Of a stretch of DNA of 64,000 bases, positions 13,904 through 59,546 are shown in pieces. The DNA comes from Nocardia sp. BMG51109 (lineage in GTDB: Bacteria > Actinomycetota > Actinomycetes > Mycobacteriales > Mycobacteriaceae): the NCBI RefSeq assembly GCF_000526215.1, contig NZ_JAFQ01000004.1, forward strand, positions 3,596,001 to 3,660,000. Direction: 5' to 3'. Positions within the stretch are counted from its first letter, which is position 1, and every line of letters begins with the position of its first letter. Position numbers and translations under genes: made by a program. The notes under the pieces were generated by a model. It was given only the letters and a program-made list of their open reading frames with translations. It was not told where the DNA came from and did no database searches.

Positions 13904-14048
13904 TGCCCGATCGGCGAGCAATCTGGGATTCAGCTCGGGTCTGCTGTGACGAGGGCGCGGACACCGAGGCCCGGCGATGGGTTGGACAGGCGGGGTTTTC
14001 GACTCGGATCCGATGAGCTGGATGATCGATCACTGGGTTGAATTGGGG

Positions 14049-35113: not shown

Positions 35114-35431
35114 CTGTGTTCCTCCTCGACTGAACCCGCATGTCAACTGACCTTGAACAGCTATTGCCGCAATTCCGCACATGCTCCTGGGGCTTTGCAC
35201 CAGTTGGCCTGAACATTCGTTTCAACCTGGTGCGGATATCTGGCGACTGGTGTGCTGAACCAGCGCCCGGCAGGGACGGACAACTTGGTCCGATGCGAGG
35301 TGGAAGTCCCTCAGCCGTACTGCTGATCGGCCGTGGCAGCGTACCGATCAGCCCACCGGAACCGCTTGTGGCGCAAAGCCTATGCCCAAGGGACCGGGAC
35401 CACCCAGACAAACCGATGAGTCGAGGTGTCG
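35114..35431. other. 318-bp divergent intergenic region
   Basis: Lies between the minus-strand XRE gene and three plus-strand genes, so it should hold promoters for both directions. An open plus-strand frame from 35140 spans it but runs out of phase through the next gene and has no family pattern. No clear promoter pair was found. Confidence 0.4.
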
Positions 35432-36729: not shown

Positions 36730-37626
36730 TCATTCTGGGTTCGGCATTGCATCCAGATACAGATGCACAGGGTCCTCGGACAGGTTGCGGTCGAGCCAGC
36801 CTGGAAGTGACGGAAGGTCGCGAACCCAGGGGATCAGGACGCCATGAACAGCGAGTGCGCTGGGCCGTTGGCTCGCGTCGACAGAAAGTAACTGGCGGAT
36901 GAGTGCATCCAACTCCGTCGGCACCTCGACCAGAGGTTCGAGTTCCACGGTATTGCCGTACCCGATCGGGCCGGGGCCGTAGGCGAAGGGTTTCGATCCA
37001 GTAAGCAGCTCGTGCAGCAGCACGCCGACAGCGAATACGTCGCTGGCCCGGCTCGCGGGCATGGACTCCCAGAGTTCGGGTGCCATGTAGTTCAGCGACA
37101 GCGGGGGTTGGTCATTCTGCGTGATGCTGGAGTACTCGCCGACTCTCAGCGATGTAGCCGCGCCAAAATCGATGAGTTTGATCGTCCCGTTCGGAGCGAG
37201 GACGAGGTTCTCCGGCTTGATGTCGCGATGGATCAAATCTACCGAGTGGGCGGCGGCGAGGACCGCGCAGACCTGAGCAGTGATCGACGCTGCCCAGCCG
37301 ACGGTAAGGCCGTCGTATTCGCCGAGGAGGGTGCCGACGGTCTGCCCGGGTACCAATTCCATAATCAGGAACAGTTCGTCGTCCTCACCGGACTTGTCCT
37401 CACCGAAGTCGAATACCGCAGGCACACCGGGATGGTGGAGCCGTGCGGTGATCCGGGCTTCCCGGTGGAAGCGTCGGCGAGCATCGGAATCCCTCGTGTG
37501 CTCCGATGACACCAGCTTGATCGCCACCTCACGGTTGAGGCGTACGTCGGTTCCGCTCCATACTTCCCCCATGCCACCACGCCCGATGGGGGAGGTGATG
37601 CGGTACCGATCGACCAAAGTCCTCAT
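36730..37626 (-). CDS. Soluble Ser/Thr protein kinase (last gene of the defence operon)
   Basis: A 298-residue Hanks-type kinase starting MRTLVDRYRITSPIGRGGMG at ATG 37626, overlapping the helicase stop by four bases. All key elements are present: Gly-rich loop 15-22, K37 in VAIK, catalytic HRDIKPEN with D135, and DFG at 153-155. There is no transmembrane segment or sensor domain after the kinase (only a short tail ending DAMPNPE), so it acts in the cytoplasm. As part of this operon it probably phosphorylates one of the helicases or methylases, comparable in principle to PglW of Pgl/BREX type 2 (analogy only). Confidence 0.9.
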   Translation of the reverse strand: MRTLVDRYRITSPIGRGGMGEVWSGTDVRLNREVAIKLVSSEHTRDSDARRRFHREARITARLHHPGVPAVFDFGEDKSGEDDELFLIMELVPGQTVGTLLGEYDGLTVGWAASITAQVCAVLAAAHSVDLIHRDIKPENLVLAPNGTIKLIDFGAATSLRVGEYSSITQNDQPPLSLNYMAPELWESMPASRASDVFAVGVLLHELLTGSKPFAYGPGPIGYGNTVELEPLVEVPTELDALIRQLLSVDASQRPSALAVHGVLIPWVRDLPSLPGWLDRNLSEDPVHLYLDAMPNPE

Positions 37627-39704
37627 GGCAGGAATCTGCTCTTCTTCCCGTTCCAGCTGATGACGAGGCTGTCGCGAGCTCGGGTCGCGGCGACGAACAA
37701 CAACGACCTGGCCTGCTTTATTTCCACACGATACCGTGCTGGATCCTGTTGTCTCAGTGCGAGTGCATGGCTGCTCGGTAGTAGACCGTCGGCGACGCCT
37801 GCGAGGATCATGCGCTGGTATTCCAAGCCTTTGAATCGGTGCATAGTGCCGACGTGTACTGCCGCATCGATGTCCCGGGGCCCGTCGGACCCGATGACAG
37901 TAGCCGTAATCCCGCTCTGGGACAGCCTTTTCGCGACAGCAGTTGTCATCCACCGCTCGGGAACTGCGACTCCGATCGACCTGCCGCCCCACTCGTTGAT
38001 CTGGTCGAGGGTTCCGTCGAGTTCGGCCTCCCAAGTGAGGTAGGGTCGTGGCTCGGGTGTCTGGCCGCGCAGCACCGAGCGGTAGCCGACGAGGTCGTCC
38101 TGGCCCTCATCGAGGTCGTCCCATTCCTCCTCGCCGAGTAGTCCTGCTGCCACACTAAGGATTTCGTGCGTGGTCCGGTAACTCAAGGTCAGTTTCGCTG
38201 ACCGGCCTCGGATGTTGATGCCGAGCTGGCCGAGCGATGCGTACTGACCGTAGATCCGCTGGTGAGGGTCGCCGGCAATGAACAGGTCGTTCGGGCTCTC
38301 GGGAACCAGCTGGCGCAGCAGACGCCAGTGAGTGGGGCTGAGATCCTGAGCTTCGTCCACCACGACATGTCGGTAGCGGTCGACCTGGCCGCCTGGCGAT
38401 CCGGCTAGGGTTGCCGCTCGTTCGGCCACTTGTCGAAATGTCCAAACCTGTTGATCATCAAGACGTTTAACGAAACGTTCAGTCAGATTCCAGATCGCCG
38501 CGCGCATGTCACGGCTGATGCGCTGTCCGCGTCCGGCGCGGCGAGCCTTGAAGTATTCCGCCCGCGTAGTCAGTCCTTGTCCGAGGATGACCTGCGTCCA
38601 CTCGTCGTGTAGGAACTGCGGATCCCATTGCCGCTCACTCTGTTCGGCGAGAAGTAGCCGCCACTCTTCGACGGCCTTGGCGTCGTTGATGCGGGTGCGG
38701 GAGTCGACGCCGGAGCCGTTGGCCACCTTGAATGCGAGCTTGTCGATGTTGAATATATCGACGCGAGAAAGAATCTCAGGACCGGCCAGATCGATCAGTC
38801 GTTGGCGCAGATCTGCCGCCAGGTTGGTGTTGAACGTGGTGAGCAGAATGTCCTTGCCACCTCCGGGCTCTAGCCGGTCCGCCAACTGCTTCACTCGGTG
38901 CAACGCGACGATCGTCTTGCCGGTACCGGGCCCGCCACTCACCCGCGCTGGGCCGTTGTAGTTTCGCTCGACGATCGCCCGCTGTGCGGGGTGCAGGAAC
39001 ACCTTCCATCGGCCGAAGTCGCCTTCTTCCAGGATCGCGTGCAGCGCACCGTCTTCGGTGGTCACGGTGGCCGGCCTGGCCAGCGCGGCCCGGTAGTCGC
39101 CGGTATCGACGGCGTCGCTTGCCTTGACGGGGGCTGTGATTTGTTCCAGCACCTCCGCGGGGGTCTTCCCGGAGAAAAGCTCGAGCAGGACCTCACTCGT
39201 GAGCTGTGGCGTATAAGAGATGAGTGCTTCGAGTTCGTCCTCGCTGGTGATTTTCGCGATCAATGGCAGGAGCGGCTCGGCGACACCGAGTTCCATCAGC
39301 GTCTGCTCCGAGTACTGCGCAAACAGCGGCACCGGCCCCGCGCTACCCACGTGTTCCGTCGCGACGGCGGATTCGGCTGTGACCAGGTCGACGAACTCGA
39401 TGCCGCCGGTGACCGGATTGATCTGATGGGCATACTTGTCGAGGTTGTCGTACACCTCTTGGCGCGGCTTGACGGCGACGATCACGTACTCGGAACCTCC
39501 AGCATGGAGCAACAGCGCTCGGTAGTCCAGATTCACCCGAGCCGAGAACAATGTGGTGCCTTGCAGCTGTTTGAACTGCAATCCGGGAGAGTTCGGATTT
39601 TCCCGGAACTTGTGCTGGAAATCGTAGATCGCGCCCTTTACTGCCCGTGGCAGCTTCAGTACTTCGTCGTAAGCCTTGTCGAGCATGCGGAGCTTCGCGC
39701 TCAT
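37623..39704 (-). CDS. SF1 (UvrD-like) helicase with RelE/ParE-like N-terminal domain
   Basis: A 693-residue protein. Residues 1-92 have the RelE/ParE fold pattern: LDKAYDEVLKLPRAVKGAIY, then GLQFKQLQGTTLFSARVNLDYRALL and YVIVAVKPRQEVYDNL, with Arg56 and Arg62 at positions where RelE toxins keep catalytic arginines. The helicase part has Walker A GGPGTGKT (257-264), VVVDEAQDLS (about 430), YRTTHEIL and the terminal LLFVAATRARDSLVI. Overlaps both flanking genes by four bases. It could be a toxin-like sensor fused to a motor, or a structural adaptor; the histidine and tyrosine of active RelE are not evident. Confidence 0.88.
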   Translation of the reverse strand: MSAKLRMLDKAYDEVLKLPRAVKGAIYDFQHKFRENPNSPGLQFKQLQGTTLFSARVNLDYRALLLHAGGSEYVIVAVKPRQEVYDNLDKYAHQINPVTGGIEFVDLVTAESAVATEHVGSAGPVPLFAQYSEQTLMELGVAEPLLPLIAKITSEDELEALISYTPQLTSEVLLELFSGKTPAEVLEQITAPVKASDAVDTGDYRAALARPATVTTEDGALHAILEEGDFGRWKVFLHPAQRAIVERNYNGPARVSGGPGTGKTIVALHRVKQLADRLEPGGGKDILLTTFNTNLAADLRQRLIDLAGPEILSRVDIFNIDKLAFKVANGSGVDSRTRINDAKAVEEWRLLLAEQSERQWDPQFLHDEWTQVILGQGLTTRAEYFKARRAGRGQRISRDMRAAIWNLTERFVKRLDDQQVWTFRQVAERAATLAGSPGGQVDRYRHVVVDEAQDLSPTHWRLLRQLVPESPNDLFIAGDPHQRIYGQYASLGQLGINIRGRSAKLTLSYRTTHEILSVAAGLLGEEEWDDLDEGQDDLVGYRSVLRGQTPEPRPYLTWEAELDGTLDQINEWGGRSIGVAVPERWMTTAVAKRLSQSGITATVIGSDGPRDIDAAVHVGTMHRFKGLEYQRMILAGVADGLLPSSHALALRQQDPARYRVEIKQARSLLFVAATRARDSLVISWNGKKSRFLP

Positions 39705-42700
39705 TGCGTTCCTCCGATCAGATCGGCGAGTTCACTGGCGGTCCAGCCGGCCGCGGTGCGGACTTGCCAGCCCGCCTCCGTATATGCCTTGTCGCGCTTG
39801 GCCGCTTCCGGATCGTCAGCCAGAACTACTGCGGCTTTAGCTGCAGGCCAGGCTAATTCGGCCTGCCACGCGTGGTCGCCAAGCTCGTACCCGACGATCG
39901 GGGCCGGCACGGCGAGCGCAGCCAGATCGTGGGCGAGATCGGCAAGACCGGGCTCGTCGGGGTCGATCTCATCGAGCTTGCGCTGCCATTCTTCAGACGC
40001 CGCACTCGGTTTCGCTGGGCCGGGCTCGGACTGGGGCGAGGGCCGTGGCGGAGGAGGAGGGAGAGTGTCATCGACGAGATCCGTGTCGAGCGGCGCCTGG
40101 CTTAGCATGGTGAGCATGCCGCTACCTCCGGCTGCAGCGAGTGCGGACAGATCGAACTCGTCCAGGGTGGACAGTGCCAGCTGTGCGCTGTCGCCCGTCC
40201 CGAAATCGAGGAACTGCATAAGGTTCCCCCAATACAACCAGCGCATCCACCGCTGCTTGTGGGCGTCGGCATCCAAGACGATGGTCGCATCACGGTCGTC
40301 TATCACCGTGAACGCGCTCCACACGGCACCCGCGCGTTGATCGAGGACCACGGTTGCCGTGTCACCGGCCACGGTCGCTATCGCGCCGGACTGTGCTGCG
40401 GGCAGCGGCAGGCCGCGCACTGCCGCCGATACCCGCTCGGCAACGCCGGCGGTGTCAGAGGTGCTGGGCCGCTCAGTCGCTGTCCTTGTCGCTCCCGCGA
40501 CCACCGCTTCGGCTCGACTGAGCCATACCTGCGGATCGGGATCGGTCAGATAAGCCAGCATAGTGTCGACCGGATTGGTCCACATGGTGGTCACCAACTC
40601 GTCCGGGTTGCGCCCGGTCTGGCCGTAGATCGCACGTGCCGCGTTCTGAGCATTGCCCTGATAGGGGGCGTTGAGCGGCTCCTTCGTGGTGCTCGGCCCA
40701 AAGTTCCGCAACTCCCACTTGTCGATGTCCGTCCAGGTGAACTGGAAGACAAGGCCACGGTGAGCGCGCAACCGGGCGCGTTTGGCGGCGTCGTCGGCGA
40801 GACGGTTGTGTTCCGGCGAGGCGTGGTACTCGTAGCCGTCCAGGTAGACCGAGATCTCCTGCGGTTTGTCGGCCATCAGCCGGAAAACGACGTCCGGCCG
40901 GGTGCCGCGAATGGTGTTCTGCAGCAGCATCTTCCAATGCCGCACCTGGCCATCGGGTCCTTCGACGCGCAGATCGGCCGTGCGTTTGCCGTTGACGCGT
41001 TCACCGCGCGCGAGTGTGCCGGGCGTGTCAGGCCGGGCGGCCCACCGGGTGACGCCGTCGAGGAACCGCGACTCGAGTTCGCTCTCGACCTGGTCCCACA
41101 GCGAGATCTGGTCAGTGGCAGTCACTTCCGCAACCTCCCAGCTGTCGAGTAGCTCGTCCAGCATCTCGACGGCGTCGAGGCGGCTGACCTTGCCGTACCA
41201 GTCGGCCTTGTCGATGGGAATGTGCGCGAGCAGACAATGGTGGCAGGCTGCCTTCGGTGGGGTCTCGTCCCGGCACGGGCAGTTGACGACAACGTCGCGC
41301 GCCGCGATCAGCACATCGCGAAAGTCCTCGGCGCTTGCGAGCCGGTGGAGATAGCCCGTGCCGCCAGGGAGCGTGTCGTGCAGGACCAGGAAGCGCCGTC
41401 GCCGTCCCGTCTCCTGATCGGGCATGGTGGCGGTGACGATCTGCAAATGGGCGGGATCGCCGCCGTACCGTCGCGCAACGCCTGCCATGAGGGCAGTGTG
41501 GAAGGTTGCGGTGCGTTCCTCGGCGTTCAGGGTGGCGATCGGCAGCAGGATGCGCAGTGCCTCGGTGTGGAGTTCGTGGGCCAGGATCACCTTTAGGTAC
41601 TCGGCGTCGCGTGCGGTGCGGCGGTGCGGGCACCAGGGGCGGTGATGCTTACGCGCCGGGTCCCAGATCGAGGGCGTTGTGGTCCCGTCGGAGACCATCG
41701 CCGGTGGTCCGTCGAAGATGGTGCCGCCGCAGACCGGGCAGGTATAGAAGGGATTGAGCCGGACAGTTTCCCCGGCGAAGCTGTCACCGGCGGGGCGATC
41801 GGAGAGCGCGATGCCGAGGTTGAAGCGGCGCACCACCGCGCGGCGGGTGTAGTCCACACCGAAGACGGCGGTGGCGTGTCGCCAGGATCCGGGGTCGATG
41901 TCGGTCGCGTCGATGTCGACGGCCGCGACCGTTTCGTAGTATCGCCGTTGCCGGTCGTCGCGGTCATCCTGGATGCGGACGTCGTCGCGGCGGTCGTGTG
42001 CGGTCACCCGGGTCGGCACCAGAACCTTGTGCAGCGCACCGACTTCCCCGATATCGCGAGCACGGCAGCGTGGGCATGGGGCGGTATCGGTCTCGGCCCG
42101 GAATGTGCGCACGTACCCGCATTCGGGGCACACCCGCCACTGCTGCCAAGCGGGCCGGTTCGTGGTGCCGACATCCAGTCCTGTGATGTTGTGCTGGTAG
42201 CCCTGCATATAGAAGGTATTGCCCGGGGCGAGTTCGGTCAGGGCCGTACGAGCCGAACGGCGGTATTCGCGAACCTCGCCGTGGTACGTGCGGTTGCCGT
42301 CTTCGGATTCCTCCTCCCAGGTGAGTGTCGCTTCCAGCGTGGTGGCGGTGTCGATGAGCGAGTAGTTGGGGAGCAGACCGAGTTCGACCAGTGCACTCTG
42401 CGCGTTCTGGCTGCCGACCTCGTTGATGCGTCGCAGGATTCCCTTGCGTTCACCGGTCATCGCTCGCTTCACGACCCGGTTGTCGGCATCGTCCTGCATC
42501 GTCTCGAGAGCGGTGTCGATGAGCCGCAGGCGATCACGGAGGTCGGCCAGGCGCTCGTCCCACACCACCTCGGCCGCCCGCACCGCGTCGGCGATCCCGC
42601 CGGCAGCGAAGGCGCGCAGGTTATCGGCGGCATCGGCGGTGACGTTGGCGCCGAACAGGTCGAGGAACGGCTCCACTGCGGCGGCGGTCAGCGCGGCGGG

Positions 42701-45700
42701 GACGAAGGTGGCCAGCCAGGCCGTATCGCCGAACAATGCCGAGGCGCGGCGCGGTATCGGCAGCACGCCGGGTAGCCGGTCTCGGGCGGCGAGGTCTACC
42801 AGATGGGCGAAGTATTGCCGATGCAGGATCTCTACGGCCGACAGGTAGCTGCCGGGAGGGATGATCTTTCCATCGATCATCGACAACGGTTGGTCGAGGA
42901 AGTAGAGGTCGCGCGGTCGCCGCCCCACCAGTGTGACCAGGAAAGCGTTGCCCGTCTTGCGGCCGGCGCGGCCGACCCGCTGCACATAGTTGGCCGGGCC
43001 AGGGGGCAACGACGCGAGAACGACCGCCGACAGATCGCCGATGTCGATACCCAGCTCCAAAGTGGGCGTGCAGGACAGCACATTGGGGTCGTTGTAGCGG
43101 GTGCCGTCTTTGAATTGCTGCTCGACCCGCTCCCGTTGGCTGCGGGTCAGAGCGCCGGTATGTTCGGCCGTCACCACATGGAACGGTTTGTCCAGGTAAA
43201 GATTGCGATAGTAGTCGTTGCGGTCGAGCAGACCACGCACGGACAGCGTTCCGCCGCAGCGGTACCGAGGGCAGGGCTGCCCGAACCAGTCGCCGGTCTG
43301 GTCCGGTGGCACCGTCTGCTGCCAGGAACAACGATCGCAGCCGATACCGGCGTCGCGAACCTGCTTGTGGTCGAGGAATCGAACGCGGATGTGGCCGGGC
43401 TGTAGTCCATATATCCGTGTCGTGCTGTCGGCGGCCGTACGTTTCGCAATGACGCCCTGCCCGGCGAGAACCGGAAGGATCCTTGAGAGATATTCTCCTG
43501 CTTGGCCTTTCGGAATACCGAGGCAGCGGGTTGCCCAGTCCTGCATCCAACTCTGTTCAGACTCGATGCCGTCGAAGTCAGACTTGTTCTTGGCGCGGTC
43601 GCGGACGAACGCTGGGGCGGACATATCGCGCGGGAAGGCGGGCATACCTTCCGGGCGCCGTCCCCAGATGGTGCCGAACCGTTTGGTCCCGACGTTGTCG
43701 ATCCACCCGTCCAGCCACTCGTGCTTGATCGCGCCGCGATAGCGCATGCGCTCCAGCAGCCCCCGGATGAAAACCAGATACCGTTGCGGCGACTGGAGTT
43801 CGATGCGGTCGGCCGACAGCCGGGTATGGACGTCGCGGGCGAGATCGGCGATTACTTGGGGATCTACGAGGACGACGTCGGCGGCGGCGGTGCCGGTCAG
43901 TTCGAGCGTTCGGCCTTGGCGAGAACGCAGCCCGAATTCCAAGATCGTCTGGAAGGCCAGTCTCTCTCCGATGAGGTCCCAGGACTTCGCCGTTCCCGTG
44001 GTCTGCTCGGCCAGGATCGCATCGATCTCCGGGAGGTCGTGCAGGTCGGGTGGAACCACAGCTGGCAGCACAGCGGCTTCGGTTGCGGCGGCAACCAACT
44101 CGGCGATCAGGTCGTGCAGCAGCATCGGTGCGCCCAGCGGGTCTAGGCGATCGGTAATCAAGCGGCGCAACGAGAAGGCGTAGGACCGGTTGGCGACGAA
44201 CCCGGCGCGATGCGCGGCGTCCTGCACAGAGTCGTTGAACAGCAGGGTTTTCCGCTGCTCGGGTTCCAACTGGTCGCGGGAGAACAGTTGGGTGATCGCC
44301 ACCGATGCGAGACTGGCCAAGCCGGCACCCAGGAATCGGATTCCTTCGTCCATATCGCAGGCGGGGCACCGATCCTTCTCGGCGTTCCGACTCGACTCCC
44401 GGCTGGTGCCGACATCGCACAACACGTACACAGCGTCGTCGCCGAGGGATTCTTGCGGGTCGAACGGCCGTACCCGGTCGTTGTGAAGTACCAGTAGGCC
44501 ACGTACCCCGGCCTTGACTTCTTCCGGTGTCGCCTGGATCAGGGCCCGGACCCGCTTGTGGTCCGCACCGACGTTGGCCCGATAGATCTTGTCCGGGTCG
44601 ACGACCAACTCGGCGGGATCGCGCTCCGGCGAAAATGCCGCCCACCCGGAGCGGCCGCAATGTCGGCAGTAGATCGCTGGCAGCGCGGTGTGGCCTACCG
44701 GATCCAGCAGCGTGTCCGCGTCGCGGACCGGCGGTTCGCCCTGCCAGGCGAAGGCGGGTGCGGCGTCGACCACCCGTGTTACGCGGGTGACGGCGCGAAC
44801 CCACATGTGTGTTTCGATCAGCAACAACGAACGTTCCGGATCGTCCGGGTCACGGGCCATCGACAGCAAGGCGATGAACCTGGCCAGAGCGATCGCAGCC
44901 TTGCGTGGATTGTCGCGGATCGCCGGACCCCACGTATAGGCACCGCGCTTGGGGAGTAGTTCCAGGAGTTCCGGCATCGTGCGCGGACGAGACTGCGACA
45001 GTGGATCATTGAGTATTTGCAGTACCGCGTGGGTGAGGATGTGCTTGCGCAGACACGCGCCGAGCTCGACCCGACTGAGCGTTGTGGACCCTGTAACGAC
45101 CGCGGCGATCTCGTCAATAGCCGGCTGATAGTGCAGCGGATCCGGACAGGACCACAATTGCTCCGGGCTGGGCAGCGGCAGGCCGTAGTCGAGATTCTCG
45201 TCCATGAACTCACCGACGGTGAGCCGATCTTCGCCGATCACTGACTGCGCCGAGAAGGACACCCCGAAAACCTTCTCGGCAACCGCCCGGATCGTCTCGC
45301 TGTCGCCGCCCTCGCCGAGGGTCGCCGAGGTGGCCACTGGGCAGATGTCACCCAGCGGCTTCCCGGGTCGGGAGTGCCCGCTGGCGGCGGCCAAGCGGCG
45401 CAGCAACATTGCCACATCGGTGGCTTGCGCACCGTCATAGGTGTGGAACTCGTCCACCACGACGAAAGCGATCCGGGCGTCCTCCCACAGCGGCAGATCG
45501 TCGGCCCGCTGCAACAGCAGGTCCAGCATCTTGTAGTTGGTTACGAGGATGTCTGGTGGGTGGCGCCGGATCTCCGAGCGGTTCGTCATCACCTTCTGAT
45601 AGCCGACCTCCGGGGTATCGCCGATGTAAAGGGCTGCGGTCACCTGCTCCATACCGGTTTTCGTCAGGTAATCGTTCAGACGGTTCGCCTGGTCGGTGGC

Positions 45701-49100: not shown

Positions 49101-51252
49101 CGATCAGCGAGTTACCCCGCCGCAGGTGCAGCCCGAACCACGGCGCCTGCAACCCCGGGTGCATGACGTTCAGCCACAAGGACACCTCGGCCAGCTCGAC
49201 GGCGGTGTCATTGAGGTCCACACCGTACGAGTTGTGTAGCGCGATATATGCTTTCGTCTTCTGCAGCTCGAATTCGTACTGTTCCGGGTCGATGTCGACG
49301 CCGAGTTCCTTCTGTCGCCGCTTCAGATACTCCGCAGCCACCTGGTTGATTGCTTCGTTGAGGAACGCCCCTGAGCCTAGGGCCGGCTCACAGATCTTCC
49401 AGCCGAGGATCTCTTGAGCGGTGGTGGTCGTATCCTCTTGATCGAGGCGGTATTTCAGGGCGAGCTGGACAGTGACGCTGGTCAGCGATTCGGGTGTGTA
49501 GTAGGAGGCGCTGGTCTCCCGGTCACGCCCGGCGAGCCGGTAAACAAAGGAACCCTCCGGATACCGCATGTACTCTCCGGTTTTCGTGCCGTCTTCGTCG
49601 ACGCGGCGGACGAAGACATCGGAGGAGTACTCGTCTTCCTTGGACGCGGGGATCATCCACGACCCGTCCTTGGGGTCACCATTCTTGGCGACCTCCAGCA
49701 GTTCCTCGGTGGCGATGAAGCCCGTATAAGACATCAATCCCTCGTACACTGCGCCCAGCTGGTTGATACCCAGCTGGGCGTATGAGATGAACCCGCCGCG
49801 CTCCCTGCGTCGGCCCTTGGCGAGCATCAGTTTGCGCAGCACCTGGTACAGGCAGGTGTTGCGCAGCCGGGTGTCGACGGTGACGCCTTCGTCGTCATCG
49901 ATCAGGAGTTCTCTGCTGATCAATCCGATTGCTTGCGGCTCGAACAAGTCCGAGCGCATCGGCTCGAAACGCAGGCCTTCGCCGTCGGATACCTCGTCGC
50001 CTCTGCGGGGTCGATGTCCCAAGTTGACCAGCCGGAACAGCAGATCCAGCGACTCATACAGGTGGAAACTGTTGCGCGCCTCCTCACCGCTGAGATCCCG
50101 CCACACCAGGTCGCCCAGTCGGGCGAGGCCGTAGCCACTGCCGTAGTCCTGATCGTCGGTAGGCAGGATCCCGAGTTCCGGGCGTGCTTCTGCGTACAGC
50201 AGGAATAGGATTCGATACAGGTAGCGCAGAGCTTCTCTGCTGAGTTCCTTCGCCAGGGCTGTCGGCTCCATGATGTCGTCGGGACGGATCCCCTGTGCGC
50301 GGAGCCTGTCGAGTACCTCGTTGGCGATCAGTTCGACCGAGTCCTTCAATCCGTCCCGCAGCTCCTTGGACACTCCGACTGCGTGATTGCGCGACTTGGT
50401 GAGTAGCTCCGCGAGTGGTTCGGTGCCGCCCTCGGCGGGCGGGAGCAAGGCGCCCGCGCCGAACAGCGCCCCGATGATCGAAAGTTCCTCGATGTCATTG
50501 CGGCCCAGGGCGACATCGAGGCTGACACCCAAGTAGCGGCCCTCACCCCAAGCGGCGCGATCGGCAAGAATCAGCACACCACCGGCCAGCATCAGCACGT
50601 AACGGGGCGGTTTCTCGATGGCGAACAGCCACTTCGCCAGCTTCGGGCCGGAGCTGATCTCCTCCCGGTTGTCCAGCGTGACCGGCGTCAGCAGTCGTCC
50701 GGCTTGGTCGTCATCGAGCGCGGCATCCACATCCACGGCCCAGCCGCATTCGATCGCCATGAGATGGTCGTCAGCATAGGCGACTGCAACAGTGTGCTCA
50801 CCTCCCGCGCGTTCGACGGTCAGCTCCCGTGGCTGCGCGTCGAAACCCAACGCGCGCAGCACATCGCCGTGCAGTTCGCCGAGTTTCTTATGGAGTTCCG
50901 TCAACTCGACGGTGGTCAGGGGGTCTCCGTCCCGGCGACGGACGTCGAGGTCGGCGAAGTACGGGCGGTCCGCGAAGTATGGTTTGCCGAGTGCCCGCAA
51001 GCCTTGCCGCGGCGTCACCGGGATTGGGGGCTGCTGCGATTCGGTCGCCTGGTCCGAGCCTATGTTGTCCTCCGACTCGGCGGGTTCGGCAGTCTCGGCC
51101 GATGCCGTATCGGTTTGCTGTCGGTGCTGTTTCTCCAGCTCAGTCCACTGGGCGAACGTGCCGTCCTTCTTCTTCAACTCCTTGGGCAAGACCTCGGCCA
51201 GGTAGTGCGCCGAGAAGTAATCGCCGCGATTCACCAGGGAGTCGAGCCTCAT
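46123..51252 (-). CDS. Large Eco57I/PglX-like N6-adenine DNA methyltransferase (DrmMI-like)
   Basis: A 1709-residue protein. Methyltransferase motif I is CEPALGSGAFLNEA (about residue 622) and motif IV is VGNPPWVRP (about 1079), the N6-adenine class. The N-terminal 500 residues are helical and may hold nuclease or scaffold functions; the part after motif IV is the presumed target-recognition region. That region, roughly 46300-47970, is clearly poorer in GC than the rest of the gene (two 60-base rows at 47521-47640 contain 27 and 31 G+C), with many A/T-ending codons, suggesting exchange of the specificity part. Overlaps the genes on both sides by four bases. Confidence 0.88.
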   Translation of the reverse strand: MRLDSLVNRGDYFSAHYLAEVLPKELKKKDGTFAQWTELEKQHRQQTDTASAETAEPAESEDNIGSDQATESQQPPIPVTPRQGLRALGKPYFADRPYFADLDVRRRDGDPLTTVELTELHKKLGELHGDVLRALGFDAQPRELTVERAGGEHTVAVAYADDHLMAIECGWAVDVDAALDDDQAGRLLTPVTLDNREEISSGPKLAKWLFAIEKPPRYVLMLAGGVLILADRAAWGEGRYLGVSLDVALGRNDIEELSIIGALFGAGALLPPAEGGTEPLAELLTKSRNHAVGVSKELRDGLKDSVELIANEVLDRLRAQGIRPDDIMEPTALAKELSREALRYLYRILFLLYAEARPELGILPTDDQDYGSGYGLARLGDLVWRDLSGEEARNSFHLYESLDLLFRLVNLGHRPRRGDEVSDGEGLRFEPMRSDLFEPQAIGLISRELLIDDDEGVTVDTRLRNTCLYQVLRKLMLAKGRRRERGGFISYAQLGINQLGAVYEGLMSYTGFIATEELLEVAKNGDPKDGSWMIPASKEDEYSSDVFVRRVDEDGTKTGEYMRYPEGSFVYRLAGRDRETSASYYTPESLTSVTVQLALKYRLDQEDTTTTAQEILGWKICEPALGSGAFLNEAINQVAAEYLKRRQKELGVDIDPEQYEFELQKTKAYIALHNSYGVDLNDTAVELAEVSLWLNVMHPGLQAPWFGLHLRRGNSLIGAGRKVYTAKQLTSGEWLKQAPEDLPFSAGALPSGKIHHFLLPADGWGAVAGVKEAKALAPEQARQLSDWRKGMKRRVSDKKINGRKLSQVQRLQALSGRVEYLWDLVIKRLEMSEREISRRIDVWGADWITQPTESISKEKVFQDLTAPGTPYWRLKKVMDAWCALWFWPLDKAGLLDGTDEAYAQEHIGESPLDSLAPASGHAEQSLRLESSGFEQVYVTESLFSLGDEQLDLADYAQSQLTSSPKPKTARRKLEPVREIIPLKNLDDWLDFAEAVVGRADVPEDSLVTNFASLADLEPYEDDLPTWMGMDPWLKLDERFPWLWRVQKIVEDEAFFHWELQFSQIFSGGGFDLQVGNPPWVRPRWEEAPILAEVDPWFMLAERPDPSEIQLRRSMALKSSGNHTYLANELSSVMAVVEYLGKGIAYPTLVGTQPDLYRGFMIRSWGNNRTNGTVGLIHPDSHFGGAREGCLRAAAYHHLHLHAKFINAANWAFEDLSRTQEFGLHIYGSPREISFVHFSDLYNADAIPQSLKHNGKGPIPAIKHGGRWDTRPHRARIIRVNSALLGDWQRLLDTRSAPVDQTPLLYPISTAEAGAMEALSNFGRRLGVDQPRISRGFDEAGAKSTGLIRWDTCRPESLTDVILQGPHFGIATPFNKQPNIPCNTNRDWVAFDATSLGESVVPVTNYQRASDLGNFQSSQDRWNSNSNENRLYTEFYRLAWRAMIDAKSMERSLFAALIPPGPAHVHAVHSLAMKSHDRTVLAAGFWAALPLDYLLRITGRTHLQYTEARAMPAADTNHPLATPLMLRTLRLNCMSNAYEVLWNSLYDSTWRDEPWTTTQQNLRPLGDVSPRWLYETPLRTEQERRAALVEIDALVAVWLGMTAEQLIAIYLSRFPVLAGFEENMWFDNTGRKIAGNFNTFGRGQTKEHYQQLVSHLDPEINGPIPAGYQAPFYKADREKEYRQAHKVFSDRLRAAGYPVPNDDITKDSQA

Positions 51253-54026
51253 CGCACTGCCTCCTGCTCCGGGACGAGAACGGCCAGCACCCGCAGTAGG
51301 GGAGAGCCGGTGGTCTGCATGGCATCGAGCAGCCGCTGCTGGCGCTCGACGGTGTCATCGATGTGCTGCTGTCCGCGACTGCGGTGGGCGACGGGCATGC
51401 GGTCGAGGCTGAGCTGCTCCCACGTTTGCAGTCGGTCTCGGTATTCGTTCAGTGGTGCAGCGACCTCGGCGTCGTAGTCGCTGCGGCGGCTCTCCAGGAG
51501 GCGGCGGGCAACAGCGACTACCTCTGGCACCTGAGCTTGCAAATCCGTCAGGTCGCGGGCTCGGCCAGTATTGGTCATGCCAGGCCCCACCTTTGCCGCA
51601 TCCAGTACCTCGGTCATCCGTTTCGGTAGCACACCGTCACCAGTCACGGCCATCCATTCCACGACCGTGGGCTGCCCCAGCTTGTTGGAGTAGATGCCTT
51701 GGATCAGGAATGTCGGCTCCGGGACATCGGCGACGATCACCGGTGCCTTCTGCCGGCCCAATCGGACCAGCACCTTGTCGGTGACCCAGTCCACCAGTGG
51801 GTGCAGGTCCGACAGGTATGCGATCTCCGGCCACATGGTTTTGGTGGCGTGGGCCTCGGACAGCTTGCGGTCCGCCAGCTCCTTGTCGAACGTCACTTTC
51901 ATACGGTCCCGTAGCTTGTGCCGGCGCAGGTACTCGGCGGGCAGTGAAGACAGTCGGTGCACCAGATCCGGCGGTGGCGTGAATGCCAGCATCGCCCCAT
52001 CGTCCTCGAGGTCGTCCAGCAGCCTCAAAGCGTCGATCGCCTCCCGCACGAACATCTGCGTGCTGTCGAACAGATGCGGGACGTCGGCGCAGGCCGGGTC
52101 GGCGTCCTGCGCGTCGGTACCGATCGATCCGAGTAGATCCGACAGCAGGTCTTCGGGCGGTGCCGCCTCGAGTGACTCTTCGACGGTCTTGCCCTCCAGC
52201 AGATCCTGGACCAGCCGCCGCTCCTCGCGTTCGGGGCGGAACTGGCCACTCACCGCCTCCGCGGTGCCGATACTCCGGTGCGCGGACTCCTCCTTCGTTA
52301 GCAGCTTCTCGGCCACCGTGCGGTCGTCTTTGGCGCCGTCGACCTCCGAAGTGAGGATCAGCGCCCGGAATTGCGGTTCGAACCGCTGGCCGTAGCGGTC
52401 GATACGGCCGTTGCGCTGTTCGATCCGGATCAGGCTCCACGGCACATCCCAATGGATCAGATGGTGACACTGCCGATGCAGGTTGACACCTTCGGATGTG
52501 ACGTCGGTAGTCACCAATACCCGAACCGGGCTGTCGGACAAGCCGAATCGTTCGATGATGCCCTGCTGGGTGGTATCCGACATGCCGTTGCCGAGCAGTT
52601 TGTCGACAGCGTCGCTCGGCAGGCCCATTGCGCCGGGCAGCAGCGCATGCAGCCAGTTGACGGTTTCGATGCTCTCGGAGAACACCACCGCACGGGTAGT
52701 GCTCTTCTTGCCGATTCCGATTTCTTTCAACTCGCGCAGCAGTGCGTCCAGCTTCGCCGAATCGGCATCCGAGATCCGAGAAGTCAACTGCAGCAGCGTC
52801 TTCAACGCATCGACCTCACGCTGTTCAGTGGCGGACTTCAAACGGTTGGCAACCGTCTTCGCCAACGCCTTGTGCGAGGACAAGAACGACTTCAACAGCG
52901 TGTACGGGAACAGGCGGTTCGAGGAACCGACCACGGGGTGATCGGTACGTTCGTCGCTGGCCAACCAAACCTGAGTCAGCTCGGTAAAGACCTTCTCTTC
53001 CGCCGGTGTAGCCACACACCGGATCGGTACCGACGGGCCGCGATCCGGCCACTTGGTGCCGATCTGGTTGCGCACCTCGGGATCGGTCTTGGTGCGGCGA
53101 ATGTACAGGTGCGCAATGTCGCTCGCCTCGTACTTGGTTCTGTCGGCAATCGCCGCCGGATCCAGCATCCGTATCAGTTCCGCGAACGACTCACTGTTCC
53201 CGTTGTGCGGCGTGGCGCTGGCCAGCAGCAGCGCATCCGTCTGGCGGGCGAGAAGTTTGGCCAACCGGTTACGGAGACTGGTCTCTCCGATCAGGTTGTG
53301 CGACTCGTCGATGACCACCGCGTCCCACTGCATCTTCTCCAGGTGCTGTCCGTACTTGCCCTCGTTCTTGAGGGTGTCGATGGAGACGATGATCCGTTTG
53401 TAGTAGGTGAACGGGTTGCGTCCGGCGGGGATGTCGCGCTGGATACGCTCGATGCCCACGGAGTCAAGGCGGATCAGTGGGATAGCAAAGCGGGTCCACA
53501 ACTCGCGCTGGAACTGCTCCAACACCTGCTGGGGGGTCACCACCAGAATCCGCTCGCCGCGGCCCCGTCGGATCAGTTCCGCCAGAATCAGACCGATCTC
53601 CAGGGTCTTCCCCAGACCCACCACATCGGCGAGCAGTATGCGCGGGCGCAGTGCCTGCAATGCCTTGATCGCTGGACGCTGCTGATAGATGTTGGTGTCC
53701 AGCAGGAACCGGTCGGCCAGCGCGAGCCCCTTCTCAGTCTGCGGCAACGGGGTGCGCCGCAGCACTGCCTCGAGGAACAGCCGACTCTGGGCGAATCGCT
53801 TCGTCTCGTCGAGTTCGAGGACGGTGTCCTCGGGCTGCAGCAGGCTCACGATGTCCAGCTCGGTGAAGAAGACCGCTTCCTCATCGCGTACGAACTCGGA
53901 GGCGCCAACTGCGGTTACTCGGTAGGTGGTTTTTTCCGCGCGCGTAATCGGCGCGCACGTGCGAACGATCCACTCGGCATCGCGAACCTCGATGCGGGCG
54001 CCTGGTGGAAATGCGGTCTCGGCCAC
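51249..54026 (-). CDS. SNF2-family helicase (DrmD-like)
   Basis: A 925-residue SNF2/RapA-type ATPase starting MAETAFPPGARIEVRDAEW at ATG 54026. The N-terminal 90 residues are a small beta domain as in DISARM DrmD proteins. Motifs: Walker A LADVVGLGKTLEIGL (about residue 135-149), VVIDESHNL (about 237), SATPHNGN, TTDVTSEGVNLH and RIEQRNGRIDRYGQ (about 533-546). DrmD is the class 1 DISARM marker and is normally followed by the adenine methylase gene, exactly as here. Starts 19 bases after the kinase stop. Confidence 0.9.
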   Translation of the reverse strand: MAETAFPPGARIEVRDAEWIVRTCAPITRAEKTTYRVTAVGASEFVRDEEAVFFTELDIVSLLQPEDTVLELDETKRFAQSRLFLEAVLRRTPLPQTEKGLALADRFLLDTNIYQQRPAIKALQALRPRILLADVVGLGKTLEIGLILAELIRRGRGERILVVTPQQVLEQFQRELWTRFAIPLIRLDSVGIERIQRDIPAGRNPFTYYKRIIVSIDTLKNEGKYGQHLEKMQWDAVVIDESHNLIGETSLRNRLAKLLARQTDALLLASATPHNGNSESFAELIRMLDPAAIADRTKYEASDIAHLYIRRTKTDPEVRNQIGTKWPDRGPSVPIRCVATPAEEKVFTELTQVWLASDERTDHPVVGSSNRLFPYTLLKSFLSSHKALAKTVANRLKSATEQREVDALKTLLQLTSRISDADSAKLDALLRELKEIGIGKKSTTRAVVFSESIETVNWLHALLPGAMGLPSDAVDKLLGNGMSDTTQQGIIERFGLSDSPVRVLVTTDVTSEGVNLHRQCHHLIHWDVPWSLIRIEQRNGRIDRYGQRFEPQFRALILTSEVDGAKDDRTVAEKLLTKEESAHRSIGTAEAVSGQFRPEREERRLVQDLLEGKTVEESLEAAPPEDLLSDLLGSIGTDAQDADPACADVPHLFDSTQMFVREAIDALRLLDDLEDDGAMLAFTPPPDLVHRLSSLPAEYLRRHKLRDRMKVTFDKELADRKLSEAHATKTMWPEIAYLSDLHPLVDWVTDKVLVRLGRQKAPVIVADVPEPTFLIQGIYSNKLGQPTVVEWMAVTGDGVLPKRMTEVLDAAKVGPGMTNTGRARDLTDLQAQVPEVVAVARRLLESRRSDYDAEVAAPLNEYRDRLQTWEQLSLDRMPVAHRSRGQQHIDDTVERQQRLLDAMQTTGSPLLRVLAVLVPEQEAVR

Positions 54027-54044
54027 AAGAATTCCTTCTGACAG

Positions 54045-55055
54045 TCAGAAACGGGCGGTGGCGGCGTAGTTCTTGCGAAGACGCTCGGCGAGCCGATGGA
54101 TCACCGAACCGGGCGGAGCGACGTGAGACAGGTCCTTACGGGCCGGGCGTTGCTGAGGGGTCGGGTCCTCCGGATCGGATTCTCGCTCCACATAGGTCGT
54201 CACAGCCAGATTGCGGATCGACGCGGGCAACTGACCTCCGATCAATCGCTCGAGCAGGTTGTGCACCTCGGTGATGGTCGGTCGGGCGATGGGATCGGAG
54301 GCCACCATGCGCTGCAGGATCGGCACGAACGGATCCGGGACGCCACCCAGATCCGGCGGGATTGTCGGATTCGAAATCTTCAGCATCAGCATCGGGCCGG
54401 CGGGAGCTTCGTACGGGAAGTGTCTTGCCAGCGAATACAACAAGGTAGCGCCGAGACCGTAGATATCTGTGGCTGCGGAAACCTGCTTCGGTGAGTCCAC
54501 CTGTTCTGGCGACATGCAGACCACAGTTCCCAGCGGAATGCCACTGGACGTGAGATCGGTGGGTCCCTCCGCGAGAGCCACCAATCCGAGGTCGATCACT
54601 TTCGGGCCCTCCGGGCCCATCAGGATGTTGCCCGGCTTGAGGTCTCGGTGCAACAGACCGGCAGCGTGAATGTCGGCCAACGCCTTTGCGATCAACAGAC
54701 CGAGGGTTGCGGTCTGCTCCACTGTAAGCGGGCCGTGGGCATCCAGATATTCCTTGAGGCTGAGGCCGCGGATGTATTCCAGCGCCATCCACGGGCGCTC
54801 GTCGCTGTCCTCCGACGAGGCCAGGAGAGCGGCGAGGTGCGGGCTCGAGACCGATCGCAGTGCGTCCATTTCGCGGACGAAACGGGCATGAATGTCGGCC
54901 CGGTCTGCGAGGTCGTCGCGAATCACCTTGACGGCCACCGCTTCCCCGTCGTCTGTGACGCCGAAGTACACCGTGCCCATTCCGCCTCGGCCGAGTCGAC
55001 CGCGCAGCGTGACCGTGCCGAGCCGCTTCGGGTCGGCGTCCTTCAGTCGTTCCAC
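54045..55055 (-). CDS. Soluble Ser/Thr protein kinase with DLG in place of DFG
   Basis: A 336-residue Hanks-type kinase at ATG 55055, overlapping the upstream methylase gene by 13 bases. Gly-rich loop GRGGMGTVY (22-30), K43 in VAVK and HRDLKPGN (136-143, D138) are intact; the metal-binding motif reads DLG at 155-157, a substitution tolerated in active bacterial kinases. After the kinase domain (about residue 275) comes a 60-residue charged tail with no membrane segment. Second kinase of the operon, only distantly like the one at 36730, so not a recent duplicate. Confidence 0.9.
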   Translation of the reverse strand: MERLKDADPKRLGTVTLRGRLGRGGMGTVYFGVTDDGEAVAVKVIRDDLADRADIHARFVREMDALRSVSSPHLAALLASSEDSDERPWMALEYIRGLSLKEYLDAHGPLTVEQTATLGLLIAKALADIHAAGLLHRDLKPGNILMGPEGPKVIDLGLVALAEGPTDLTSSGIPLGTVVCMSPEQVDSPKQVSAATDIYGLGATLLYSLARHFPYEAPAGPMLMLKISNPTIPPDLGGVPDPFVPILQRMVASDPIARPTITEVHNLLERLIGGQLPASIRNLAVTTYVERESDPEDPTPQQRPARKDLSHVAPPGSVIHRLAERLRKNYAATARF

Positions 55056-57043
55056 CGGATGCTCCCCTCGTCATCGTCAGGTGGGGTCATGGCACCGGCG
55101 GTCAGGCTGGCGGACATGAGTCCAATCAGTTTGTCAGCAGACTCGGAAGTCTGTCGTGCGGCACACCGCATCGCATTGATGCGGCGGAACGCCGCACCAT
55201 ACTGCTGCTGTTTGTGCAGCGGCAGTATCGGTACCCGGATCCGATTCGTTTCTGTGCGGGCCGTGGAACCCGTTGTGTGACCGGCATTGTCCGCATAGGC
55301 CGCGAAGCCGGCGAGGAACCAGGAGTCGAGGCGTTCGCGATCCGGGCGTAGTACGACAACGCCGGGACCGGCCGCTACTCCGGCGTCGGCTTCGTCGGCA
55401 ACCCGGAGGGTGAGGAGGCTTCGCTGGGCGCGAACGGCTGGGAGAACGACATCGCCGACAGCGATCACGATCAGTTTCGATGAGATTGCCAGCTCTCCGG
55501 CGGGTGTGGAGGCCCTGGTGTCCGAGATGACATCTTTGCTGGTCAGCACGAGCAATGATGAATCTCTTACGGTGTCGGGCGTTTCCTCCGGCCGCGATAC
55601 CGTTCGCAGGATCTGAAGGGCACCACCTTGAGTAAGGCTCGACAGAGTTGCGGTGCGCCATGCTGCCGAATGCGTTACCGGCCAGCCACGGAAAATTCCC
55701 GCATGTGTACGTATTTCGTCGGTCTGAGCCGAAAGATTGGCCGCAAGCTCATCGACTCGGGCCGACAGCATGTGCGGATCCAGCGGTACGTGTGTGTGGC
55801 GGGCAGGCGTGAGATCGACCAGATCGTCGAGCAGGGTGACCACGGGCACCGATTCCGCAGCATCGGGGACCGGTTCGAACGATTCCGGTGTGGTGCCGAA
55901 CGCATGCCACAACTTCACTACTCGGCCGGCAAATACGTCGAGTGACTCTCGCTCGGGTGGGGCATCCACGAAGAGCACTCGGTCGGGGACCACCGCGCCC
56001 ACCTCCGGTCGGCGTAGCACCCACAGATGCAGCCCGATCGACATAGACGGGACGGAGCCTGTGGGAAGCGCGATCACTGAGCGGACTGTGCCGGCTCGGA
56101 GCAGGGCCGCACGAATCCGGCGCCCGGAGTTGCGGGCAGCCACGGCAGGCGGTAACAGAAATACGGCGGTGCCGCCCGGACGGAGATGCGCCAGGCCGTG
56201 TTGTATCCACGCGAGTTCGGATTCGATGCGCGGCGGTTGCCCGTACTCCCAGCGTGAGTCGAACGCCAGCTGATCGATGCCCCAATCCCGTTGTCCGAAA
56301 GGCGGATTGCACAGCACCGCGTCAGCTTGCAGAACGGGGAAACCATCATCGCGGAGGCTGTCGCCGGTTCGAACCTCGGGATCAATGTCGGTATCCAGGC
56401 CAACCGTCAGCCGGGCCAGCTCTGTCTGCGATGCGATCAGGTCTTGTCCGTACAACTCGGCTGCACCTAGGCGCGCTGCCTCGATCAATAAGCCCCCGCT
56501 GCCACATGCAGGATCGAGAACACTGCGCGGGTAGTCGGTGCCCGGTATCGCGAGCAGATCTGCCATCAACCGGGCAAGTATGGGTGGAGTCCAGTACTGA
56601 CCGGACTCGAGCGAGCCTTGTAGGGCTCGCTCGGCCGCGATCTCCAGGACCATGCGCGCGCCGTTGGCGGTAGCCACTTCCCGAATCGCTGCGGATAGCT
56701 CGGGTGACAACCGGTGTGGTGACTCGGAAACCTTTAGCCGTCCGGAGTCGACGCGGATACCGGCAAGAGCAGGCGCGATGTCTTCCGGTCGTACCTGAGT
56801 TTGAAGAAGCGTCCGTAGCTCGGACACGGGGGACCGGGCCGATTCATAGCCATGCGTGGCGAGCCAGGTCCTTACCTCGCCGAGATCGAAGAGGGGGCGT
56901 GCCTCGGTGCCGGCCGTCATCGCCGGGAAGTCGGCGTGACGGCGGCGCCAGTTGCTCACCGTTGCGCGAGTGACACCCGCATATCGAGACACCTCTGCCG
57001 CGGTCACCAGTAGCGGACCGTCCGGGCTGCCCGTTGTCTTCAT
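55043..57043 (-). CDS. HTH-containing N6-adenine DNA methylase (HsdM-like) with S-like C-terminus
   Basis: A 666-residue protein. Residues about 11-37 are a helix-turn-helix (AAEVSRYAGVTRATVSNWRRR). The methylase has motif I DPACGSGGLLIEAA (about 175) and motif IV NPPFGQRDWG (about 247). The last 200 residues, with LLVLTSKDVIS, VGDVVLPAVRAQ and RIRVPILPLHKQQQYGAAF, read like half of a type I specificity subunit ending in the usual conserved helix. No HsdR or separate HsdS is nearby. ATG 57043 is chosen over the longer frame (57109) because a predicted promoter overlaps the longer start; the mRNA would be almost leaderless. First gene of the operon. Confidence 0.9.
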   Translation of the reverse strand: MKTTGSPDGPLLVTAAEVSRYAGVTRATVSNWRRRHADFPAMTAGTEARPLFDLGEVRTWLATHGYESARSPVSELRTLLQTQVRPEDIAPALAGIRVDSGRLKVSESPHRLSPELSAAIREVATANGARMVLEIAAERALQGSLESGQYWTPPILARLMADLLAIPGTDYPRSVLDPACGSGGLLIEAARLGAAELYGQDLIASQTELARLTVGLDTDIDPEVRTGDSLRDDGFPVLQADAVLCNPPFGQRDWGIDQLAFDSRWEYGQPPRIESELAWIQHGLAHLRPGGTAVFLLPPAVAARNSGRRIRAALLRAGTVRSVIALPTGSVPSMSIGLHLWVLRRPEVGAVVPDRVLFVDAPPERESLDVFAGRVVKLWHAFGTTPESFEPVPDAAESVPVVTLLDDLVDLTPARHTHVPLDPHMLSARVDELAANLSAQTDEIRTHAGIFRGWPVTHSAAWRTATLSSLTQGGALQILRTVSRPEETPDTVRDSSLLVLTSKDVISDTRASTPAGELAISSKLIVIAVGDVVLPAVRAQRSLLTLRVADEADAGVAAGPGVVVLRPDRERLDSWFLAGFAAYADNAGHTTGSTARTETNRIRVPILPLHKQQQYGAAFRRINAMRCAARQTSESADKLIGLMSASLTAGAMTPPDDDEGSIRWND

Positions 57044-57050
57044 GTGAGCG

Positions 57051-57078
57051 ATCGTAACCAAGTCGGTGTCAAAGTCAA
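57051..57078 (-). promoter_or_regulatory. Predicted promoter of the defence operon
   Basis: On the minus strand TTGACT (57078-57073), a 16-bp spacer and TACGAT (57056-57051). The -10 ends only eight bases before the ATG at 57043, so transcription would begin at or very near the start codon. A second TTGACA follows the first at once, giving a direct repeat. Confidence 0.5.
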
Positions 57079-59171: not shown

Positions 59172-59546
59172 TCAGGCTGCCACGGTGGTGAATTCTCCGG
59201 CGGTGATGCCTGCTGTGAAGGCGTTCCATTCGCGGAACGTGTAGGTGAGTTCGGTGCCGACCGCATCCCTGGCGATGACAGTGCCTGTGGTGGAGTCGAT
59301 TTCGGTCGTCGGGATGCCCAGTTCGGAACCGAACCCAATAGGTCTCGCCGCGATCGTGAGAAACTCGGCCCAGTGGCGGGCGGGGATGACGATCACCGGC
59401 TGATCGGCCGGCGGCCCGTCGTACTTGCTGTCTCGCATGAGCACTACGTCTCCGTCGAACCGGACCTCGACACAGCTGGTGGTGTCCTTGGAGAAGCTGG
59501 ACTTGAACCAGTCTGTTCGTACCGAGGTGGCCTTGGAAGTGCTCAT
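59172..59546 (-). CDS. DUF397 domain-containing protein, extended form
   Basis: A 124-residue protein at ATG 59546. Residues about 11-62 have the DUF397 pattern (DWFKSSFSKDTTSCVEVRF, VLMRDSKYDG, IPARHWAEFL). The second half (ARDAVGTELTYTFREWNAFT) ends with a partial repeat of the DUF397 end (FREWNAFTAGI), so it may be a degenerate duplication. Lies four bases after the stop of the XRE-type gene. Confidence 0.88.
   Translation of the reverse strand: MSTSKATSVRTDWFKSSFSKDTTSCVEVRFDGDVVLMRDSKYDGPPADQPVIVIPARHWAEFLTIAARPIGFGSELGIPTTEIDSTTGTVIARDAVGTELTYTFREWNAFTAGITAGEFTTVAA

Follow-up and report, generated by a model that had tools for sequence, protein, structure and literature searches.

A cluster of seven genes on the minus strand of a 64,000-nucleotide stretch of the Nocardia sp. 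BMG51109 genome (contig NZ_JAFQ01000004.1; the whole stretch is referred to here as the window) raises the question of which defence system the genes encode, and of what two serine/threonine kinases and an additional adenine methylase contribute to it. Judged from homology and gene order, the core of the operon is almost certainly a complete ARMADA type II system (armABCD), and the operon as a whole (window positions 36730-57043) is probably best read as a kinase-controlled variant of ARMADA II, in which armABCD is joined by two kinases, designated kinase A and kinase B, and a helix-turn-helix (HTH)-methylase. The four-gene core is already known; what is new here is the layer of kinase and HTH-methylase placed upon it in one actinomycete clade.

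The cluster consists of reading frames of 666, 336, 925, 1709, 2141, 693 and 298 amino acids, and the overlaps between neighbours are 13, 4, 4, 4 and 4 bases; the genes are real and are arranged as one operon. An earlier reading of the window by a model (the sequence-only reading) had described seven minus-strand genes of these sizes in a single operon, which the reading frames and overlaps confirmed, as they did its range of 4 to 13 bases for the overlaps; the single gap, between genes 2 and 3, is of 18 bases and not the 19 it gave. Its domain claims were borne out by Pfam, which placed HTH_17 and N6_Mtase in gene 1 (HTH_17 below threshold, at 20 bits against a curated cut-off of 27), Pkinase in gene 2, SNF2/Helicase_C in gene 3, Eco57I in gene 4, DEAD/Helicase_C/MZB (DUF1998) in gene 5, UvrD in gene 6 and Pkinase in gene 7. 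A genome contig collection (84,980 species) was scanned with ArmB, a search which finds close relatives only, and 44 related loci were obtained, all from actinomycetes. Since the identical seven genes occur in identical order in 5 of these 44 (L009, L016, L020, L028 and L029), the arrangement is not due to chance.

ARMADA type II is described as having a strict order of BrxHII-like ArmA, PglX-like ArmB, YprA-like ArmC and, almost always, GajB-like ArmD, the last fused to a RelE-like domain (PMC12458937, Bell et al. 2025, preprint; what is said of ARMADA below follows its main text). This order is kept in genes 3-6, which are joined by 4-base overlaps, and each of the four best matched its own counterpart from E. 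coli ATCC 8739 among the proteins of that island which were compared. Gene 3 (51249-54026; 925 amino acids) is predicted to encode ArmA, a SNF2/RapA-type helicase (508 bits, residues 1-918); gene 4 (46123-51252; 1709 amino acids) ArmB, a PglX/Eco57I-type methyltransferase (411 bits for the best segment only, residues 205-895); gene 5 (39701-46126; 2141 amino acids) ArmC, a YprA-type helicase with MZB/DUF1998 (619 bits, residues 1-1808); and gene 6 (37623-39704; 693 amino acids) ArmD, a UvrD/GajB-type helicase with a RelE-like N-terminus at residues 1-115 (360 bits). ArmA and ArmD align nearly end to end with the E. coli proteins, residues 17-692 of gene 6 corresponding to residues 20-701 of E. 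coli ArmD, N-terminus included. The sequence-only reading had called gene 6 a RelE-UvrD helicase; Pfam supported the UvrD part, while the RelE part had no Pfam match and owes its RelE likeness to the alignment with E. coli ArmD only.

According to the preprint, ArmC of ARMADA type II carries a BrxA-like insert, a beta-barrel zinc module, a MarR-like insert and a C-terminal Vsr-type nuclease (PMC12458937). In the alignment with E. coli ArmC, the tail of the window protein has W, Q, D, DG, H, D and R residues in common with it, and its first C-terminal nuclease-like domain (approximately residues 1681-1809; 40700-41086, minus strand) holds the D/DG/H/D/R residues common to the two; the last domain (approximately residues 2038-2140; 39707-40015, minus strand) is a possible second, degenerate nuclease domain. 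A Foldseek search with a model of the tail returned nothing at E<=0.001, and VIA-align gave weak PD-(D/E)xK matches, with no Vsr entry among the matches listed. ARMADA type II has been tested in E. coli NCTC 12900 and ATCC 8739, in the latter by deletion of the whole system; it requires all four core genes, the Walker motifs of ArmA and ArmC, the Walker A motif of ArmD and the NPPW motif of ArmB, and it is non-abortive (PMC12458937).

The sequence-only reading had correctly seen a defence system whose kinases and HTH-methylase lie outside the textbook set, and had noted correctly that DrmC is missing, yet it took the core for a DISARM-like hybrid with a link to Pgl/BREX type 2. The SNF2 protein does resemble DrmD (304 bits) and ArmB resembles DrmMI, and real DISARM loci that include a kinase and a member of this HTH-methylase family exist, as set out below; even so, a true DISARM/BREX hybrid is very hard to credit. 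The DrmD match lies well short of its cut-off of 610, and none of the seven proteins matched DrmB or DrmC. DISARM has DrmA and a separate DrmB; here the helicase and MZB (DUF1998) lie in one protein, which matches E. coli ArmC over residues 1-1808 and scores 23 of 999 bits against the DISARM_DrmAL model. Membership of BREX type 2/Pgl was rejected on the same grounds (PglW 49 against a cut-off of 990; no PglZ or BrxC match among the seven proteins), and the proposed link amounts to the presence of a kinase only. The sequence-only reading had named two findings that would refute it, namely that the genes are never conserved together elsewhere or that all seven match one named system, and neither was borne out: the exact order was found in the five loci given above, six more genomes have the full set with the methylase moved to the opposite end, and only four of the seven genes match the named system, ARMADA type II.

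The kinase that precedes the core is the most constant of the additional genes. Kinase A (gene 2; 54045-55055, minus strand; 336 amino acids) is a Hanks-type serine/threonine kinase in which K43, HRD138, N143 and D155 are intact and DLG replaces DFG. A kinase was found directly upstream of ArmA, on the same strand, in 49 of 49 testable loci (43 from the ArmB scan, the window, two Streptomyces plasmids and three loci of a phylum survey; L043 was left out, its sequence ending before that position), and every one of these 49 kinases retains the beta-3 Lys, HRD and the following Lys, the Asn, the Asp and Gly of DFG and a later Glu. The Phe of DFG is Leu in 12 of the 49, window included. Spacing between the kinase A gene and armA, by predicted gene starts, ranges from a 4-base overlap to 283 bases. 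An annotated protein kinase occupies the same position on a third Streptomyces plasmid, among the inspected subset of 31 plasmid records with ArmA. Pairwise distances of kinase A and ArmA were correlated (r = 0.94), and none of 2000 permutations gave a value as high.

No kinase reading frame of at least 80 amino acids was found in any of 11 other ArmA loci (Tsukamurella, Mycobacterium riyadhense, four Actinomycetota, Microvirga, two cyanobacteria and two E. coli records), the same search having recovered two kinase-bearing controls. In one locus of this kinase-less kind (L123, 6506-7696) a TIR-domain protein lies directly before ArmA, at the usual place of kinase A. An ArmA tree, a quick tree with Shimodaira-Hasegawa-like approximate likelihood-ratio test (SH-aLRT) support only and long-branch warnings, was built with 24 of the 49 kinase-bearing rows, all of which fell on one side of a branch with SH-aLRT 100, so a single gain of the kinase fits best; because the outgroup branch is very long, the root is weak, and with it the choice between gain and loss. 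Of 396 Actinomycetota genomes drawn evenly, 8 had ArmA (E<=1e-60), the window's included, and the kinase was detected in 4 of the 8. Within its clade, kinase A is very probably a functional part of the ARMADA system.

Kinase B (gene 7; 36730-37626, minus strand; 298 amino acids), also of Hanks type and with VAIK, HRD and DFG intact, adjoins or follows ArmD in 20 of 30 loci; its catalytic residues are intact in 20 of 21 sequences, the remaining one being cut short. Of the ten ArmD loci in which no kinase B adjoins, L060 and L081 lie at or near contig ends, and in L076 the ArmD concerned is a second copy, preceded by kinase B. The HTH-methylase lies upstream of kinase A in 15 of the 44 related loci (and approximately 6 kb upstream in one more, L186) and directly behind kinase B in the six genomes mentioned above (L002, L004, L006, L008, L019 and L033), so that it stands at one end or the other in at least 22 of 44. 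Many related loci have extra genes between ArmB and ArmC, or ArmD farther off. As gene content is kept while order changes, these genes can be argued to form a functional set.

What the HTH-methylase does is less easily answered. Gene 1 (55043-57043, minus strand; 666 amino acids, or 688 from an alternative upstream ATG at 57109) has an HTH_17-like domain at residues 12-63 (56855-57010) with the recognition helix VSNWRRRH, an HsdM-type N6-methylase at residues 145-366 and an HsdS-type target-recognition domain (TRD) at approximately residues 460-650 (55094-55666, approximate). The profile of the family matched HsdM structures (7vru, E 8e-50), and its end, at profile positions 512-627, matched the HsdS chains 5ybb_D and 3okg_A (E 1e-8); an AlphaFold model (mean predicted local distance difference test score 84.6) matched subunits of type I methylases as well as BpuSI, a type IIG enzyme. 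Gene 1 is an HTH joined to HsdM and one HsdS-type recognition domain.

Such a build invites a plain explanation, namely that the protein works as a second adenine methylase for self-protection (an M.S fusion), the kinases being incidental or serving general signalling. The structural matches agree with it, as does the window copy, in which DPACGSG and NPPF are both intact, and the HTH-methylase may replace the usual methylase in DISARM loci. In an alignment of 57 family members, 18 of the 20 copies from DISARM, type I restriction-modification, kinase-YprA, ArmD-like or orphan settings have motif IV in its canonical form, [NDS]PP[FYW], and the other 2 do not, which again suits a working methylase. 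Among ARMADA-linked copies, however, the motif is non-canonical in 19 of 24 (the 5 canonical ones include the window's NPPF), although the HTH and motif I are kept; over the whole family the VSNWR recognition helix is preserved in 56 of 57 members and motif I nearly always. In the Micromonosporaceae the first residue of motif IV is mostly H, inherited within one clade, and in the clade whose HTH-methylase gene lies behind kinase B it reads V, G, G, S, A and T, which looks like free drift. Moreover, with catalytic residues intact in 49 of 49 loci, kinase A can hardly be dismissed as incidental. The plain-methylase explanation is accordingly thought unlikely, if deserving of weight. The motif pattern suggests that the ARMADA-linked HTH-methylase would bind DNA, and perhaps S-adenosylmethionine, rather than methylate; that it is chiefly a reader and controller in the ARMADA setting is a finely poised proposition, leaning slightly to the negative.

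The same family was found beside other defence systems. In four loci (L133, L136, L137 and L185) it lies behind DrmA-DrmB-DrmC and ahead of a serine/threonine kinase, in the same order each time; DrmA, DrmB and DrmC are all above curated cut-offs in L133, L136 and L185, and L137 was assigned through similarity to those proteins. Seven loci pair it with a type I HsdM, five of them also having an HsdS-like protein, four HsdR and three a kinase; in L138, HsdR exceeds its cut-off, HsdM narrowly misses its own (234 of 242.75), and HsdS, which has no NCBIfam match, was named by position and appearance. In L131 (8954-15226), a gene between the HTH-methylase and a SNF2 helicase encodes a 2090-amino-acid protein which fuses a serine/threonine kinase (residues 14-275) to a YprA-type helicase with MZB; close homologues of the fusion occur in L130 and L132, and this locus is apparently a separate YprA-based system. 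ArmD-like helicases accompany the HTH-methylase in five loci. In five more (L172, L173, L174, L176 and L178), the HTH-methylase (HPPF/HPPY) is followed by a protein of approximately 240 amino acids and a kinase; there was no Pfam match for the former in the two scanned, no PADLOC match in the one scanned, and no match in these loci to the helicase and nuclease references used, and they possibly represent a stand-alone system. In motif IV, the remaining 13 family copies (kinase-240, kinase-only and other settings) are canonical in 3 cases.

A kinase lies downstream of the HTH-methylase within two genes in 18 of 31 loci and within four in 20, and none of 146 genes beyond four genes from it is a kinase; this count is partly biased, some loci having been chosen for a known kinase, and the 5 of 10 non-ARMADA loci of the even phylum survey with a kinase within two genes downstream is the fairer figure. 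On a tree of the family (again a quick tree with SH-aLRT support only and long-branch warnings), the ARMADA label must change six times or more even if starred branches only are counted. Near neighbours on it, all from Actinomadura, comprise one ARMADA, one type I and three kinase-YprA copies. The window copy sits on a long branch, within a starred group of 11 that also holds type I copies, kinase-YprA copies and two further ARMADA copies, and since it groups away from the copies of its ArmA relatives, a swap fits. It is proposed, tentatively and with less assurance than the reader role itself, that a Hanks-type kinase and an HTH-methylase, the latter in many cases catalytically dead, together make up a portable signalling cassette on ARMADA II, DISARM, type I, kinase-YprA and ArmD-like loci, a controller dependent on phosphorylation and DNA reading which would time restriction, the methylases becoming readers after recruitment to ARMADA.

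Portability also suits a different explanation, in which the HTH-methylase and kinase govern expression of the adjoining restriction operon and have little effect on the machine itself. The near-universal VSNWR helix, the six or more label changes, read as swaps between settings, promoter-like sites ahead of the gene, and precedents such as CapK+CapS, CapW and CapH+CapP (PMC13373217) speak for it. A promoter-like site (TTGACT-16-TACGAT; 57051-57078, minus strand; a consensus match only) lies in front of gene 1 and ends 7 bases from the start of the 666-amino-acid form, which predicts a near-leaderless transcript; a second (TTGACA-17-TATGGT) faces the opposite way in the shared intergenic region, for a divergent gene, and shuffled versions of the region contained a mean of 0.1 such sites. 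Nonetheless, in roughly half of the loci kinase A stands beside armA and no HTH-methylase is in view, and the fusion of a kinase to the YprA helicase in L130-L132 favours action on the machine; this transcriptional explanation is considered unlikely, if again deserving of weight. The divergent gene itself (57223-59145; 640 amino acids) has no Pfam or NCBIfam family and is a weak PADLOC candidate (PDC-S71).

The favoured reading, a kinase-controlled ARMADA II, can be set out as a working model. The ArmA-D assembly would find, and then destroy or block, unprotected invading DNA, like the E. coli system and without cell death. The two kinases would phosphorylate core proteins and/or the HTH-methylase, restraining or arming the nuclease-helicase machine; because its position is fixed, kinase A is proposed to act on ArmA or ArmB, and kinase B may target ArmC or ArmD. 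The HTH-methylase would bind its own site through the TRD and, probably via the HTH, operon DNA, serving chiefly as a reader of sites or methylation state and as a controller; with NPPF intact, the window copy may also methylate. Taken separately, on/off control of the core by the kinases is a serious possibility that stops just short of probable. A precedent for a kinase with a DNA-binding partner is CapK+CapS (PMC13373217), from other protein families. PglW of BREX type 2 is a further kinase precedent (PMC12839542), and for PglW kinases a role has been proposed which suggests another reading of kinases A and B, as back-up suicide effectors phosphorylating host proteins when restriction fails (PMC12839542). 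Intact catalytic residues are compatible with such a role, but E. coli ARMADA is non-abortive and, unlike PglW, the two kinases of the window are small, separate proteins that lack a second half; suicide effectors are considered improbable.

Several observations weigh against the favoured reading. In E. coli, four genes suffice for ARMADA II to function, none of them for a kinase (PMC12458937), and both the correlation of distances and the one-clade pattern of kinase A would also follow from simple co-inheritance. Neither the HTH-methylase (22 of 44 loci) nor kinase B (20 of 30) is demonstrably indispensable. The motif IV counts are not independent, since 12 of the HPPF rows come from one Micromonosporaceae clade; nor is loss of the motif peculiar to ARMADA, given the 3 canonical among 13 further copies elsewhere, and with its intact NPPF the window protein may simply methylate. 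Finally, the best PADLOC match was DruE for gene 5 (321 bits, split into pieces) and a type IIG enzyme for gene 4 (926 bits), labels which are put down to its 2023 library being older than ARMADA.

The remainder of the window contains further defence genes. A Wadjet type II operon lies at 24099-32434 on the plus strand (JetD 434, JetA 870 and JetC 1373 bits; JetB was not identified in the one reading frame tested), and its presence in the same window as ARMADA gives the region the look of a defence island. A protein with the CTD10 C-terminal domain of ABC-three-component systems was found at 62137-63111, and a UvrD-type helicase of 673 amino acids (13977-15998) with a divergent 498-amino-acid frame without a Pfam family (12016-13512) is a possible further defence pair. 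A DUF5753 HTH regulator (34214-35200) and a DUF397 protein (59172-59546) flank the operon; members of the DUF5753 regulator family are again encoded close to many of the related loci, some of them lying between ArmB and ArmC. Large divergent genes precede ArmA or kinase A in three loci, encoding a DUF4011/MTES_1575 helicase-nuclease in L007 and L124 and a 1881-amino-acid protein with an nSTAND match in L008. The G+C content of the cluster region is 0.54-0.67, against up to 0.70 in the left part of the window.

ARMADA type II has been described as a four-gene, kinase-free system, and every testable cluster of one actinomycete clade has a kinase predicted from its residues to be catalytically intact. 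The word 'kinase' is absent from the main text of the ARMADA preprint (PMC12458937), the supplementary tables being outside this scope, and no ARMADA-linked kinase was met in the main texts of the literature searched, the preprint supplement not being covered. With an intact kinase in every such cluster, one point mutation would directly test whether phosphorylation gates a restriction machine; the pairing of kinase and HTH-methylase next to DISARM and type I systems, with the kinase-YprA fusion, would point to a control layer shared by several defence systems; and the puzzle of why Pgl, a restriction system, needs a kinase gains a simpler model.

Set beside known systems, the operon resembles DISARM class 1 in its SNF2 protein, PglX-like methylase and DUF1998 helicase, and some actinomycete DISARM loci (the four above) likewise have a kinase together with an HTH-methylase of this family; it differs in having no DrmB or DrmC match and a DrmD score below cut-off. 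With Druantia type III it shares a YprA-type helicase, DruE being the best PADLOC model for gene 5 and DruE and the ARMADA YprA helicases falling in one larger branch (PMC12458937); membership was rejected, as gene 5 scores 126 bits against the E. coli DruE encoded by a neighbouring gene in ATCC 8739 and 619 against ArmC, and no DruH match was found among the seven proteins. MADS (MAD1 HTH, MAD2 methylase, MAD6 kinase) has the same theme of HTH, adenine methylase and serine/threonine kinase, but the window matches all fall well short of the NCBIfam cut-offs (MAD2 33 of 720; MAD6 95 and 144 of 460; no match to any other MADS model), and it too was rejected. BREX type 2/Pgl likewise combines a serine/threonine kinase with a PglX-like methylase, and differs in the PglW, PglZ and BrxC results given earlier. 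CapK+CapS offers a parallel in principle, a kinase and a DNA-binding partner beside different immune operons, although CapK is a GHKL kinase and CapS a STAS-winged HTH protein (PMC13373217), and the window has a Hanks-type kinase and an HTH-methylase. With ARMADA type II, the window shares the armA-D order, homology throughout, the RelE-like N-terminus of ArmD and a YprA helicase with a C-terminal nuclease-like region, and to these the window operon adds two kinases and an HTH-methylase.

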